From NCBI RefSeq assembly GCF_017356035.1, contig NZ_JAFIQX010000001.1:930001-994000 (forward strand): a DNA stretch of 64,000 bases, in the 5' to 3' direction. How positions within the stretch are numbered: the stretch's first letter is position 1; each line of letters opens with the position of its first letter. The notes beneath the pieces were generated by a model. The model saw nothing but the letters and a program-made list of their open reading frames with translations, was not told the origin of the DNA and searched no databases. Source of the DNA: Longitalea luteola (GTDB lineage: Bacteria; Bacteroidota; Bacteroidia; Chitinophagales; Chitinophagaceae). Made by a program: the position numbers and the translations under genes. Below, piece by piece: positions 6,325 through 35,757 of the stretch.

Positions 6325-9300
6325 ATGAAGTTAACTTCATTGTTATTAGTCCTGTTCGGTCTACAGGTAAGCCTCACCGCCAGTCCGCAAACCATTACCT
6401 TTTCGGGTAAGGAGGTCAGGCTCGAAAAACTGTTTAACGAGATCAAGTCCCAAACCGGTTACCTGGTGATGTACAATTACAAAATGATCCGTGATGCAAA
6501 ACCCGTGACCATTGCTGTGCAGAATGAGCCCTTGCCCTCTTTTATGCAGCGGGTGCTGAACAGGCAATCGCTTGATTTCAGCATTCACAACAAGACCATC
6601 ATTATTAAACGCAAACCGGAACCACCCACCGGTGAGACAAACACCCAGCAGCCAACCCAGCCACTGCCTATCGACGTAAATGGAAAGGTGACCGATGAGA
6701 GCGGGGCGCCGCTTTCGGGCGCCACTGTAAAAGTGAAAGGCACCAACCAGGTCACCAGTTCAGACGCCGGAGGCAATTTCAGTCTTAAAAATGTGAAAGA
6801 AGGTGCTGTACTGGAAGTGTCTTACATAGGCTTTGTTGCCCGCGAGATCAGGCTCGATGGAAAGAACAGCATGCCGGTGATCACGCTTCAGAAAGAAGAA
6901 TCAAAAATGAGCGAAGTAGTGGTCATAGGTTATGGATTTCAGAAGAGAAGGGAAGTATCGGCAGCCGTAGCATCCTTCAAACCAACTGAAGAGAACAGCC
7001 GCCCGGCCCTCAGTGCCGACCAAATGATCCAGGGCAGAATGCCAGGCGTACAGGTGAGCGCCGGCTCAGGTAGTCCCGGCTCCAGCAACCGCGTGGCCAT
7101 CCGGGGTATCGGTTCCCTCAGCGCTACCAACGAACCGCTGTATGTGATCGATGGAATTCCGGTGGTGCAGCAGAATGCCGCCCTCATTAACATGGGCGAG
7201 AACATGAATCCGCTGGCCCTGCTTAATCCCAATGATATCGAGTCTGTGGAAGTATTGAAAGATGCTGCCTCTGCCGCCATCTATGGATCAAGAGCTACCA
7301 ATGGCGTCATCATCATTACCACTAAATCAGGCCGCGCCGGTAAATCGAAATTCACTGTTGATTATACCACCGGCATTCAGCAGGTGCCCAATTTGCACAA
7401 GGTGAAAATGGCCAGTTCTGAACAATACCTGCAGGTGATCAATGAAGCCATCGACAATTTCAATACACAAAATAATTACCTGCCCGGCAGCACCAATTAT
7501 ATGCTGCGGAAAGAGAATCCGTATCCAGGTTTGCCCGATACAGACTGGATGGACCTGGTGTTACGTACAGCCCGCACACAGAGCGCCGGCTTCTCGGTAA
7601 CCAGCGGTACTGATAAAACGAAACTGTATATTTCCGGCAACTACCTGAACCAGGAAGGCGCTGTAAAAACACAAAAATTTGAAAGATATACGGGCAAGCT
7701 AAACCTGTCGCATAAGCTGAATAACTGGCTGGAATTTGGCGCCAATACCAATTTCAGCTATTCGAAGAACGACCGCGTGCCCGGTTCCAACCTGGGTTCT
7801 ACCATTATGGCCCGTTCGCTGCCCCAGCGGCCTTTCGACCGGCCTTATAAACCCAATGGAGAATATTATGTGGGCGGAACGGAAGACCTCGTGTACCACA
7901 ACCCGGTGCAGATCCTGAATGAAGAGAACACCTTCATCAATTCATATCGCATGTTGGGTAACTTTTACGGCAACCTGACCCTTGCCAAAGGACTGGTGTT
8001 CAAATCAGCGTTTGGCGCCGATCTTACGTATACGGTAGACAATGTGCACTACAACGAAAAACATCCCTATGGAACCGGCGTGGGCAGTTTAACGGATGCC
8101 CGCCGCCTTGCCTCCAACCTGTTATGGGAAAATACCCTGAATTATAACAAGACCTTCGATAAACTCGATTTCGGCGCACTGGCAGGTTATTCTTACCAGA
8201 AGCTGAACAACTCTACTTCGTCTATTGAAGGCCGGGGCTTCCCATCACCCGCTTTCGATGTATTGTCGGTAGCTTCTGAAATCACAAATGCTTCTACCGG
8301 TCTTTCCGAAAGCGCTTTGTTGTCGCTTTTCGGCAGAACCAATTTCTCCTGGGATGGTAAATACCTGCTGGCACTTTCACTGAGGGCCGATGGTTCTTCA
8401 AAATTCGCACCCAATAACCGCTGGGGTTATTTCCCCGCCGTATCTGCGGGTTGGAATATCTCGAATGAGAACTTCTGGAGATGGCAGCATACACAGGCGA
8501 AGATCAGGGCCAGCTATGGCGCCACGGGCAACCAGGATGGCATCAGCAGTTATGCCTACCAGGCACAAATGAGCGGTGGCATGAACTATGGCCTCAGCAG
8601 CGGTATTGGCGTAACTACCAATGGTAATATGAACCTTACCTGGGAAACCGCGCGCCAGTTCGATGTTGGTATCGACCTCAGCCTGCTGAAAGGCAAACTG
8701 AATATCACAGCCGATTACTTCCTGAAGAATACCGACAACCTGTTGTACAGCAAACCTGAGCCGGCTACCAGCGGGTTCACCAGCATCATCAGCAATATAG
8801 GCTCTATGCGGAACACCGGATTGGAATTCCTGGTAGGTACCAATCTGAACATCGGTAAAGTACAATGGTCATCCGATTTTAATATCTCGTTTATCAAAAA
8901 TAAGCTCACCTCACTCATTGGCAATGATGCATTGTTGATCGGCGACAACCGCACCTTGAAAGTAGGCGAGGAGGTAGGCAGCCATTACCTGTATAAACAA
9001 CTGGGCATTTACCAGGATGATAAAGATGTACCGGAATCTTTCTACAAGAACGGTGTAAGAGCGGGCGACGTTATCTATGAGGATATCGACAATAACGGAG
9101 CCATCGATGTCAACGACCGGCAGATCGTGGGTTCTTCCAACCCTGACTTCTTTGGCGGCTGGAACAACAGCTTCCGGTATAAGAATTTCGATCTGAATAT
9201 CTTCTTCACTTACTCTTCCGGTTCAGAAGTATATGCCAGTTACCGGCTCACCGTGGATCGCCTGGGTAATAATTTCGCCAACATAACTGAAAGAGCAGTG

Positions 9301-9642
9301 AATGAAAGATGGACAGGACCAGGCACCAGCAACAGCACGCCAAGGGCCATTTACGGTTCTACCTGGAATACCCAGAACTCGTCCCGCTTCATTGAAGACG
9401 GATCGTATATCCGCCTGCGCTCACTGAATCTCGGTTACACGTTGCCGGCAAATGTTATTGGCCGGTTGAAGATGACCCGGGTGCGCGTATTTGCACAGGC
9501 AGATAACCTGTTCCTGCTTACCAACTACTCGGGCATGGACCCAGAGGTGACCAGCAATTTTGATCCGCAGTTCCTGGGACAGGACAACCTGATCCTTCCG
9601 CAACTGCGAGTGATCAACTTTGGCTTGAACATTAGTTTTTAA
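6325..9642 (+). CDS. SusC/RagA family TonB-linked outer-membrane receptor with STN domain
   Basis: An 1105-residue TonB-dependent transporter. After a signal peptide (to about LTASPQ) an STN/secretin-type signalling domain occupies ~20-90 (TFSGKEVRLEKLFNEIKSQTGYLVMY). A carboxypeptidase-regulatory-like fold follows at ~113-190 (VNGKVTDESGAPLSGATVKVKGT), then the SusC signature VVVIGYG, the plug (PLYVIDGIPV, SVEVLKDAASAAIYGSRATNGVI) and a 22-strand barrel ending in INFGLNISF. The STN domain fits control by the upstream FecR/sigma pair. The partner SusD starts 18 bp downstream. The cargo is not predictable from sequence, though the co-operonic phosphodiester glycosidase hints at a sugar-phosphodiester. 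Confidence 0.95.
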   Translation: MKLTSLLLVLFGLQVSLTASPQTITFSGKEVRLEKLFNEIKSQTGYLVMYNYKMIRDAKPVTIAVQNEPLPSFMQRVLNRQSLDFSIHNKTIIIKRKPEPPTGETNTQQPTQPLPIDVNGKVTDESGAPLSGATVKVKGTNQVTSSDAGGNFSLKNVKEGAVLEVSYIGFVAREIRLDGKNSMPVITLQKEESKMSEVVVIGYGFQKRREVSAAVASFKPTEENSRPALSADQMIQGRMPGVQVSAGSGSPGSSNRVAIRGIGSLSATNEPLYVIDGIPVVQQNAALINMGENMNPLALLNPNDIESVEVLKDAASAAIYGSRATNGVIIITTKSGRAGKSKFTVDYTTGIQQVPNLHKVKMASSEQYLQVINEAIDNFNTQNNYLPGSTNYMLRKENPYPGLPDTDWMDLVLRTARTQSAGFSVTSGTDKTKLYISGNYLNQEGAVKTQKFERYTGKLNLSHKLNNWLEFGANTNFSYSKNDRVPGSNLGSTIMARSLPQRPFDRPYKPNGEYYVGGTEDLVYHNPVQILNEENTFINSYRMLGNFYGNLTLAKGLVFKSAFGADLTYTVDNVHYNEKHPYGTGVGSLTDARRLASNLLWENTLNYNKTFDKLDFGALAGYSYQKLNNSTSSIEGRGFPSPAFDVLSVASEITNASTGLSESALLSLFGRTNFSWDGKYLLALSLRADGSSKFAPNNRWGYFPAVSAGWNISNENFWRWQHTQAKIRASYGATGNQDGISSYAYQAQMSGGMNYGLSSGIGVTTNGNMNLTWETARQFDVGIDLSLLKGKLNITADYFLKNTDNLLYSKPEPATSGFTSIISNIGSMRNTGLEFLVGTNLNIGKVQWSSDFNISFIKNKLTSLIGNDALLIGDNRTLKVGEEVGSHYLYKQLGIYQDDKDVPESFYKNGVRAGDVIYEDIDNNGAIDVNDRQIVGSSNPDFFGGWNNSFRYKNFDLNIFFTYSSGSEVYASYRLTVDRLGNNFANITERAVNERWTGPGTSNSTPRAIYGSTWNTQNSSRFIEDGSYIRLRSLNLGYTLPANVIGRLKMTRVRVFAQADNLFLLTNYSGMDPEVTSNFDPQFLGQDNLILPQLRVINFGLNISF

Positions 9643-13357: not shown

Positions 13358-13365
13358 TATTTTTG
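13358..13365 (+). promoter_or_regulatory. Putative -7 promoter box upstream of the tRNA
   Basis: TATTTTTG matches the Bacteroidota TAnnTTTG -7 element and lies 61 bp before the tRNA. No clear TTTG -33 element is present. The predicted leader would contain two perfect hairpins: CTCCCGA (13368-13374) with TCGGGAG (13381-13387), and TTTTGAACC (13393-13401) with GGTTCAAAA (13416-13424). Confidence 0.35.
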
Positions 13366-13426
13366 CGCTCCCGATGAAAGTCGGGAGGTGTGTTTTGAAC
13401 CGGTAAGCAATTATTGGTTCAAAATA

Positions 13427-13712
13427 GGACCGGTAGCTCAGCTGGATAGAGCAGCTGCCTTCAAACTTAGGAGCCTTATAGGGGAAACGAAACCTTATAA
13501 GTGGATGCCACTATATCGGTGAAACCTTCCTGTAGCAATGCAGATGGCAATACCGAGGAAACCTGCAAGGGGTTCCGTAGAGACTACACGTGGCACACCT
13601 GAAATGGTGAAGATATAGTCCAGACCACAAATTCCGACCCAGGTTGGAAGCAGGGAAACCTGTAGCGGGTAAGCTAAGCAGCAGGTCATTGGTTCGAATC
13701 CAATCCGGTTCA
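13427..13712 (+). tRNA. tRNA-Arg(UCU), interrupted by a group I intron
   Basis: The exons join to a complete tRNA. The acceptor stem is GGACCGG with CCGGTTC (13705-13711, one G-U pair), and the discriminator A is 13712. The D arm is 13436-13452. The anticodon stem is GCTGC (13454-13458) with GCAGC (13678-13682), and the T arm ATTGG-TTCGAAT-CCAAT spans 13688-13704. The spliced anticodon loop reads CTTCTAA, giving anticodon UCU, which decodes AGA (Arg). The exon ends after U34 at 13461 and resumes with C35 at 13674. CCA is not encoded. Because the intron splits the anticodon, the tRNA is useless until spliced. Confidence 0.92.
13462..13673 (+). ncRNA. Group I self-splicing intron (212 nt, IC3-like) in tRNA-Arg(UCU)
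   Basis: All core elements can be drawn. P1: exon CUU (13459-13461) with intron GAG (13471-13473), including the U-G pair at the splice site. P2: 13475-13483 with 13493-13501 (9 bp). P3: UGCCAC (13506-13511) with GUGGCA (13590-13595). P7: GACUA (13582-13586) with UAGUC (13616-13620), within the classical R-like AGAGACUACACG and S-like AAGAUAUAGUCC boxes. P8: CACC (13596-13599) with GGUG (13606-13609). P9: UUCC (13632-13635) with GGAA (13646-13649), then a CAGG-GAAA-CCUG tetraloop hairpin (13651-13662). The intron ends in omega-G 13673. It has no endonuclease ORF. The segment GAGCCTTA...AAGTGGATGC resembles cyanobacterial tRNA-Leu introns. Confidence 0.92.
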
Positions 13713-13714
13713 CG

Positions 13715-13746
13715 AAAAAGCTTCACAACAATGTGGAGCTTTTTTT
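13715..13746 (+). terminator. Rho-independent terminator after the tRNA
   Basis: AAAAAGCTTCACA (13715-13727) pairs with TGTGGAGCTTTTT (13732-13744), with one T-G pair, and runs into a T tract. It begins three bases after the discriminator base, so the tRNA precursor is short. Confidence 0.75.
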
Positions 13747-35322: not shown

Positions 35323-35757
35323 AAGATTTGTTTTTGATCCTACTCGTCTGGCTTTTCGGTTCCGCCCGTTTTTGTAGTGGTTGCTGCTCCACTTACTTGC
35401 TTAATGCCAGAACAAAAATAGAAAGGGCAGGTCTGTCACATCGGGGGTGTTTGCGCCAATCTGAGGGCAGTTTGTGACTATTTACAAGCACTGTCCGCTA
35501 CCTGCAGAAATGATAACAGGCGTTCGTTCGGTTACGGCTATTTGAGGTGATAATGCGAGATCCGAAAAACATTTATACCCTGTTCCAAGCCTTGGGCATC
35601 ATGTTGTCTTCTTTATGAAATCCGCTTCCATGGCGGGTTTTAACATTTTGTACGGGGTTTTAGTATCCTAAAAACGTCCCTGAGTTGATTTTTGCGGGGC
35701 CAAAACGCGCGGTATGTTTGCATCATCAAACGAAACAAACTCTTAAAACATACAATT
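35323..35757. other. Intergenic region between divergent genes
   Basis: No ORF or strong repeat. It should carry the promoters of the SRPBCC gene (-) and the small exported protein (+). A GATTTTTG box near 35685 resembles a -7 element and would leave a leader of about 65 nt. Confidence 0.35.

Follow-up and report, generated by a model that had tools for sequence, protein, structure and literature searches.

A tRNA-Arg(UCU) gene split by a 212-nt insert

The window, by which we mean the whole 64,000-nt stretch of Longitalea luteola DNA analyzed here (genome G000), carries a tRNA-Arg(UCU) gene at 13427-13712. Reading of the sequence places a 212-nt insert at 13462-13673 (intron L001), which splits the gene after U34. 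The gene and its surroundings are laid out as follows.

13358 to 13365, + strand: candidate promoter element of the Bacteroidota -7 type, TATTTTTG, which precedes the tRNA and occurs in each of the five same-genus loci with the intron that were compared
13427 to 13461, + strand: 5' exon of tRNA-Arg(UCU), ending in C32 U33 U34 (from the sequence)
13462 to 13673, + strand: group I intron of 212 nt without an endonuclease ORF (from the RF00028 score and two-sided changes)
13674 to 13712, + strand: 3' exon of tRNA-Arg(UCU), starting with C35 U36 A37 A38 (from the sequence)
13719 to 13746, + strand: probable intrinsic terminator, stem AGCTTCACA/TGTGGAGCT followed by a T run (read by eye)

The 5' exon contains the acceptor strand GGACCGG, the D arm, the anticodon stem strand GCTGC, and the loop letters C-T-T, and the 3' exon continues with C-T-A-A, GCAGC, the T arm, CCGGTTC, and A. 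The loop after splicing is CTTCTAA, which gives the anticodon UCU, and the exons form a normal cloverleaf. Pairing between the 5' and 3' exons in the acceptor and anticodon stems is found in 16 of 16 aligned loci. The 39-nt 3' exon is matched at 100% in the intron-bearing genomes G071 (Longitalea arenae) and G253, and also in several genomes with adjoining 5' and 3' exon matches (e.g., G216 and G323). Uninterrupted copies of the tRNA in same-genus genomes, with identities of 99% in G150 and G342 and 93% in G209 and G288, each over all 74 nt, mark the exact insert.

The octamer TATTTTTG at 13358-13365 is a candidate promoter element, its motif resembling the Bacteroidota-type -7 element. Downstream of the gene, a terminator-like hairpin and T run similar to those of the window are found at L033, L035, and L036, and the locus of the G253 intron (L032) has a different hairpin and a shorter T run. 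Two leader hairpins were read by eye. The first, CTCCCGA/TCGGGAG at 13368-13387, has changed bases in the relatives that are still mostly paired, and the second, TTTTGAACC/GGTTCAAAA at 13395-13424, is also present in G071 among the five loci compared.

The insert has the fold of a group I intron

In a 381-base E-value search, RF00028 (group I intron) was matched at 40.6 bits (E 4e-9) with model positions 1-253 aligned. Because this score lies under the gathering score of 50 bits, an Rfam gathering scan of the window gave no group I match at 13462-13673. The sole gathering match in the window is a DUF805 RNA motif (RF03081) at 35333-35397 on the minus strand, with 70.4 bits. Two candidates over the 3' exon and terminator were rejected as under threshold, namely SpF41_sRNA (34.3 bits versus a gathering score of 52) and an Rfam tRNA fragment (20.1 bits versus 29). 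The elements of the intron are given below, with counts taken from the alignment described after the list.

13459 to 13473, + strand: P1, exon CUU and C13462 paired with GGAG at 13470-13473; 16 of 16 rows
13475 to 13501, + strand: P2 hairpin, 13475-13483 with 13493-13501; two-sided changes in 6 of 9 pairs, 90.8% of cells paired
13506 to 13595, + strand: P3, 13506-13511 with 13590-13595, pseudoknotted with P7; 100% paired, two-sided changes in 2 of 6 pairs
13516 to 13556, + strand: P4, 13516-13521 with 13551-13556, enclosing P5; 95.8% paired, no two-sided changes
13525-13526 with 13546-13547 and 13530-13532 with 13541-13543, + strand: P5; two-sided changes in 4 of 5 pairs
13557 to 13576, + strand: P6/P6a, 13557-13563 with 13570-13576, with a 6-nt loop in the window (pair count)
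13582 to 13620, + strand: P7, 13582-13586 with 13616-13620, guanosine-binding helix by homology; invariant in 16 of 16 rows, predicted by RNAalifold
13596-13599 with 13606-13609, + strand: P8, inside P7; invariant in 16 of 16 rows
13624-13626 with 13668-13670, + strand: P9.0 (pair count)
Within 13624 to 13670, + strand: P9, 13632-13637 with 13644-13649, and a second P9 hairpin with a GAAA loop, 13650-13654 with 13659-13663
13673, + strand: last nucleotide of the intron, the omega G; the same in all 16 rows

The pair count was carried out on 16 aligned Chitinophagaceae introns, including that of the window, and covered 83 pairs, 62 of which are intron or intron-exon pairs and 21 tRNA pairs. The structure was drawn from the window sequence, an origin that favors the structure on cells paired and less so on two-sided changes. 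In it, 97.3% of 1313 cells of the named helices were paired, and two-sided changes were found in 24 of the 83 pairs, 22 of them outside the tRNA stems. None of 500 shuffles scored as high on either measure or on the covariation score of the named fold. When the partners were slid by one to three columns, pairing amounted to only 28-42%. One of the five measures, the number of further pair types, was close to its shuffled mean (49 versus 46.0, with 90 of 500 shuffles as high).

Two-sided changes are present in P2, P3, P5, P6a, and the two P9 hairpins, where they affect 9 of 11 pairs, and are absent from P1, P4, P7, P8, and P9.0. Since P7, P8, and P9.0 are invariant in all 16 rows, these three helices are without covariation support. 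The U-G pair at the 5' splice site is likewise invariant (16/16). P10 is weakly preserved (78-86% of cells): its three pairs, between the guide and the 3' exon, form in 6 of the 7 rows that have letters there, in 15 of 16, and in 10 of 16, respectively. A single-sequence fold of the pre-tRNA, which cannot reach the P3/P7 pseudoknot, had an energy of -99.9 kcal/mol (z -4.4), and none of 200 shuffles was equally stable. GAAA was read by eye at L9 and within L2 of the window intron.

The sequence reading and the pair counts confirm that the insert is a group I intron in tRNA-Arg(UCU). The preliminary description had proposed this position, length, and class from the sequence, together with core helices that include the U-G pair and the omega-G, and the proposal stands in each of these respects; the covariance-model search that it suggested gave the score under the gathering threshold stated above. 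The P3-P9 core with its P3/P7 pseudoknot appears to be kept by compensatory change, P3 having two such pairs. By comparison with the Azoarcus and Anabaena introns, the intron may belong to subgroup IC3.

The intron and its flanks in Chitinophagaceae

Part of the query was matched in 354 of 394 Chitinophagaceae genomes, with most of the listed rows consisting of tRNA exons only. Among the matches listed, at least 16 of the 394 genomes carry the intron, the window genome included, an outcome of the wider family search that the preliminary description had called for. Ten same-genus genomes are listed, five with the intron and five with adjoining exon matches or an intact copy only. The named same-genus relatives with the intron support the assignment of the host to Bacteroidota and to Chitinophagaceae.

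An intron tree of 104 rows was built from the set of 136 introns defined below, from which 28 introns without the P4 landmark and four duplicates were dropped. The tree pairs the window intron with the endonuclease-bearing intron of G071 as sisters (support 100/97), and both lie inside a five-row same-genus group (97/88). The 16 family introns do not form one group (four label changes). Because they are scattered, support is poor for many of the deep branches, and long branches come together, we claim no direction of transfer. In BLAST comparisons over 1.5 kb, the upstream flank is common to the window and G071 (81%), whereas with L032, L035, L036, and L051, the last of which is intronless, the window has just 111-123 bp of leader in common. 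On the downstream side, the flank matches that of L053, an intronless locus of another genus, at 77% and in a different arrangement.

A homing endonuclease in relatives and its absence from the window

In 12 of the 16 family introns, which measure 621-657 nt, the P6 loop contains an intact 138-codon endonuclease ORF. The copy in the G175 intron is shortened to 53 codons by an internal deletion, and three introns, those of the window, G253, and G163, are without the gene. Intact, internally deleted, and absent endonucleases are thus found alongside empty tRNA sites within one family, and this series is a compact natural set for the gain-and-loss cycle of homing elements. In the 12 introns, the ORF stops at a TAG inside the conserved core CCGTAGAGACTA, and its last codons are the 3' side of P6a, so that coding and ribozyme overlap.

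No profile match to an endonuclease ORF was obtained in the window intron, and a protein-query search gave no match to the gene elsewhere in G000, G253, or G163; the intron had been described at the outset as free of an endonuclease, and the same can be said of the remainder of G000. The same query found the gene in four of four genomes with a known intact copy (G071, G317, G365, and G293, a Niastella MAG) and found it in two pieces in G175. A PF11645 search of G000 says nothing alone, since none of 14 control genomes was matched either.

One family endonuclease matched PF11645 (PDDEXK_5) with an E-value of 2.7e-28, and so did four endonucleases encoded outside the family, including one on a viral contig, at 3.7e-30 to 2.6e-43. 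A 21-row profile across hosts found PDB 2OST (I-Ssp6803I) with an E-value of 4.8e-7. A 12-row family profile reached 2OST at E 0.52 only, behind an unrelated dehydrogenase, and a phmmer search of the PDB with one endonuclease returned nothing at E 0.001. For the predicted model (mean pLDDT 86.9), the top Foldseek match was again 2OST (E 1.9e-9, TM 0.76). Profile and model together indicate that the P6-loop ORF of the relatives is a homolog of I-Ssp6803I with the same fold. I-Ssp6803I is the product of 150 codons in the 655-nt intron of Synechocystis tRNA-fMet (PMC1995217). Both enzymes are located in tRNA group I introns of ~650 nt; they differ in sequence (~19% identity in the Foldseek alignment) and in host tRNA, which is fMet in one case and Arg(UCU) in the other, and the window allele is without the enzyme. 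We infer that in the past the I-Ssp6803I-homologous endonuclease cut tRNA-Arg(UCU) genes that were free of the intron and so allowed it to spread.

The position of the window intron, sister to that of G071 in a same-genus group, favors loss of the endonuclease. Yet the window and G253 introns, which are not sisters in the tree, have an identical 34-nt P6a segment (window 13553-13586), and simple independent deletion does not explain this identity. It is compatible with recombination or with an endonuclease-free form of greater age. If the window form were such an older intron, with the endonuclease having entered the relatives later, the shared segment would follow directly, since two independent identical deletions are unlikely. 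We nevertheless consider this order of events rather unlikely, because the gene is present in the nearest intron (G071, 100/97) and, at this location, in 12 of the 16 introns overall, and recombination with an endonuclease-free allele also explains the shared segment.

The interrupted gene and AGA decoding in the host

The G000 assembly consists of 7.3 Mb in 43 contigs and is listed as 99.98% complete. A tRNA-model search, in which 150 of 365 candidates were scored, gave 44 matches, with the split gene absent among them. ARAGORN in its default mode reported no tRNA for the window; when introns were permitted, it located the gene but called it Leu(caa), interrupted by 213 nt. Run on the 44 loci and the window, ARAGORN reported the arginine anticodons CCU (CCT), CCG, and ACG, and no tRNA in one sequence. 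A joined-exon search of G000, with all 16 candidates scored, found the two exons only and no intact tRNA-Arg(UCU), and two exons only were also found in G253, G071, and G365 (Niastella yeongjuensis). The second, intronless gene for which the preliminary description suggested a search was thus found by none of these three approaches. It is possible though unlikely that an intact copy was missed in G000, since 150 of the 365 first-look candidates were scored on a 43-contig assembly.

None of the anticodons CCU, CCG, and ACG is expected to read AGA, a codon that accounts for 115 of the 792 arginine codons (14.5%) in 36 window ORFs. Because ARAGORN missed or misnamed the gene and the Rfam gathering threshold missed the intron, a genome with this intron may seem to be without an AGA tRNA. 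Extra 3' tRNA-Arg fragments with 100% identity were noted at G163:C50:2004-2045 and G209:C15:215510-215547, and are possibly attachment-site copies of integrated elements.

Our main reading, to which we assign a probability of roughly 90%, is that the window holds a short group I intron from a mobile lineage, whose homing endonuclease was lost or never received, and that it interrupts the one tRNA-Arg(UCU) gene that the searches of the host detected. Transcription would yield a pre-tRNA with 212 extra nucleotides, in which the intron would fold into its P1-P9 core. By the mechanism usual for group I introns, P7 would then bind a guanosine that attacks after U34, which supplies the U of the U-G pair in P1, and U34, once released, would attack after the terminal G, so that U34 and C35 are joined into the UCU anticodon of an AGA-reading tRNA. 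We infer that this two-step splicing occurs, and that it is autocatalytic.

A different view is that the intron needs host proteins and that splicing is a regulated step which tunes AGA decoding, as the reading of AGA appears to depend on one interrupted gene. However, with the intron in only five of the ten same-genus genomes listed, a shared need is not evident, AGA at its 14.5% share is an ordinary codon, and the patchy presence fits a passenger. We judge this view to be very improbable, and the suggestion in the preliminary description that self-splicing is a control point for AGA decoding was overstated and is unsupported. That the gene is a defunct tRNA relic whose intron has decayed and no longer splices, AGA being read by another tRNA, is scarcely credible: the absence of an endonuclease marks a stage at which introns may decay, but both exons are intact and fully paired, the core is unbroken, and no second UCU tRNA was found in G000 beside the other arginine tRNAs (CCU, CCG, ACG).

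Distribution across bacteria

An exact pattern consisting of the core followed by GCTAA, which selects for this 3' exon and leaves the 5' exon independent, matched at least 114 stretches in GTDB (one genome per species) and 24 in viral contigs. Of the 138 matches listed, 120 are tRNA-Arg(UCU) genes cut after U34 (100 of 114 in genomes, 20 of 24 in viral contigs), one is an Arg(CCU) gene cut after position 36 (a Gloeocapsa record), and 16 are without exon assignment. The match at L204, with anticodon TAC, looks spurious and was set aside. The assigned introns are hosted by Gammaproteobacteria, Bacillota, Bacteroidota, Omnitrophota, Chloroflexota, and a few others, and thus the tRNA-Arg(UCU) intron appears, among the matches listed, in at least five phyla in addition to viral contigs.

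The 120 listed matches and the 16 family introns make up the set of 136 introns, which includes four repeats of the same introns. Their lengths range from 199 to 780 nt. The endonuclease profile matched 42 of the 136 (repeats included) at 92 bits or more, and nine more at 19-68 bits. Two expectations of the preliminary description did not survive this survey. A length of 212 nt is not extreme, as members of 199, 203, 205, 211, and 211 nt were measured, and the hosts of such introns are not limited to cyanobacteria and proteobacteria, since Bacillota, Omnitrophota, Chloroflexota, and other Bacteroidota have them too.

A covariance model of the 3' half of the intron gave matches in 27 of 395 Bacteroidota genomes. 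Twenty of these loci comprise nine that are clearly Arg(UCU) cut after U34, five tRNA-fMet(CAU), two tRNA-Leu(UAA)-like, two with competing registers (L219 and L225), and two unassigned by script, one of which is the same G155 intron as L043. The five tRNA-fMet(CAU) genes (L227-L230 and L232, from the Bacteroidota genomes G553, G772, G632, G667, and G654) have group I introns of a related kind, inserted after U33. A likeness to tRNA-Leu(UAA) was seen in L220 and L224, in one case by a lower-ranked register only.

Introns in phage and viral contigs

Several of the viral-contig introns, all located in tRNA-Arg(UCU) after U34, encode a putative HNH enzyme. L191, L200, L205, and L212 have an HNH_3 ORF according to Pfam, and HNH-like ORFs were read by eye in L192, L196, L202, and L210. 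The HNH-bearing viral introns occupy the same site as the cellular introns that bear a PD-(D/E)XK enzyme, with a different enzyme. The viral-contig intron L199 has an endonuclease of the PD-(D/E)XK type, and L201, where the tRNA is Bacillota-like, may be host flank. The L210 intron lies as follows on its contig.

8971 to 9465, - strand: L210 tRNA-Arg(UCU) intron with an HNH-like ORF (by eye, with phage protein matches)

The L210 ORF matches phage proteins, some of them annotated as HNH or homing endonucleases, and the intron adjoins ribonucleotide reductase, primase/helicase, and thymidylate synthase genes of phage families. From these matches and neighbors, the contig is most likely that of a phage. 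According to a 2014 review, the phage introns seen until then were all in protein-coding genes (PMC3984707). In a distant DNA search of annotated phages, no record covered 80% of the window gene, the best being a huge phage with 69% coverage. A similar intron core was seen in a 485-kb uncultured phage (L233, LR745208.1, about 1490-1790), in a tRNA that by eye has the anticodon UAU (CTT|ATAA).

The larger picture is that of a tRNA-Arg(UCU) intron lineage that appears, as judged by sequence, to be common to many bacteria and phages. The intron copies in phages point to a concrete candidate route of transfer, and the family is widespread in bacteria and easily missed. A broader synthesis would hold that position 34/35 of tRNA-Arg(UCU) is among the main bacterial homes of group I introns, occupied by one related lineage in at least five phyla; that an I-Ssp6803I-type enzyme drives it in cells and an unrelated HNH enzyme in phages with the intron in their own tRNA-Arg(UCU); that the lineage is shuttled by the tRNA genes of phages; and that the window intron is an endonuclease-free allele, kept because its location is the sole copy of an essential tRNA. 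We offer this synthesis tentatively, at somewhat less than even odds.

Relation to known introns

The preliminary description knew of no intron in tRNA-Arg(UCU) of this phylum. Likewise, among the titles and abstracts listed in our searches of the open literature, none concerns tRNA group I introns of Bacteroidota. The novelty does not extend to the tRNA, since the same tRNA and site are occupied in many bacteria and cases in Beggiatoaceae are in print: PMC4853749 mentions putative group I introns in tRNA-Arg-TCT of Beggiatoa BOGUAY and Thiomargarita Bud S10, citing MacGregor et al. 2013a. The kind is thus already known, and the window intron is a further member, in Bacteroidota. The Beggiatoaceae introns have the isoacceptor of the window and the same putative class; in contrast, their hosts are Gammaproteobacteria, and the paper assigns no structure or type to them.

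The tRNA-Arg(CCU) introns of alphaproteobacteria, such as BbgpI of Bartonella bacilliformis, are reported to splice both in vivo and in vitro (PMC7717549). Like the window intron, the BbgpI type is a group I intron in an arginine tRNA that was overlooked by annotation; unlike it, the isoacceptor is CCU and there are flanking CCT repeats. Missed genes are also reported by the authors of tRNAscan-SE 2.0, who name group I introns, carried by the fMet and Ile2 genes of bacteria, as a cause of missed tRNAs (PMC8450103).

Finally, the introns of cyanobacterial tRNA-Leu(UAA) and Azoarcus tRNA-Ile(CAU) appear to resemble that of the window in their anticodon-loop site, short ORF-less core, U-G pair, and terminal G, and differ from it in tRNA and host phylum. 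Both are presumably members of subgroup IC3.
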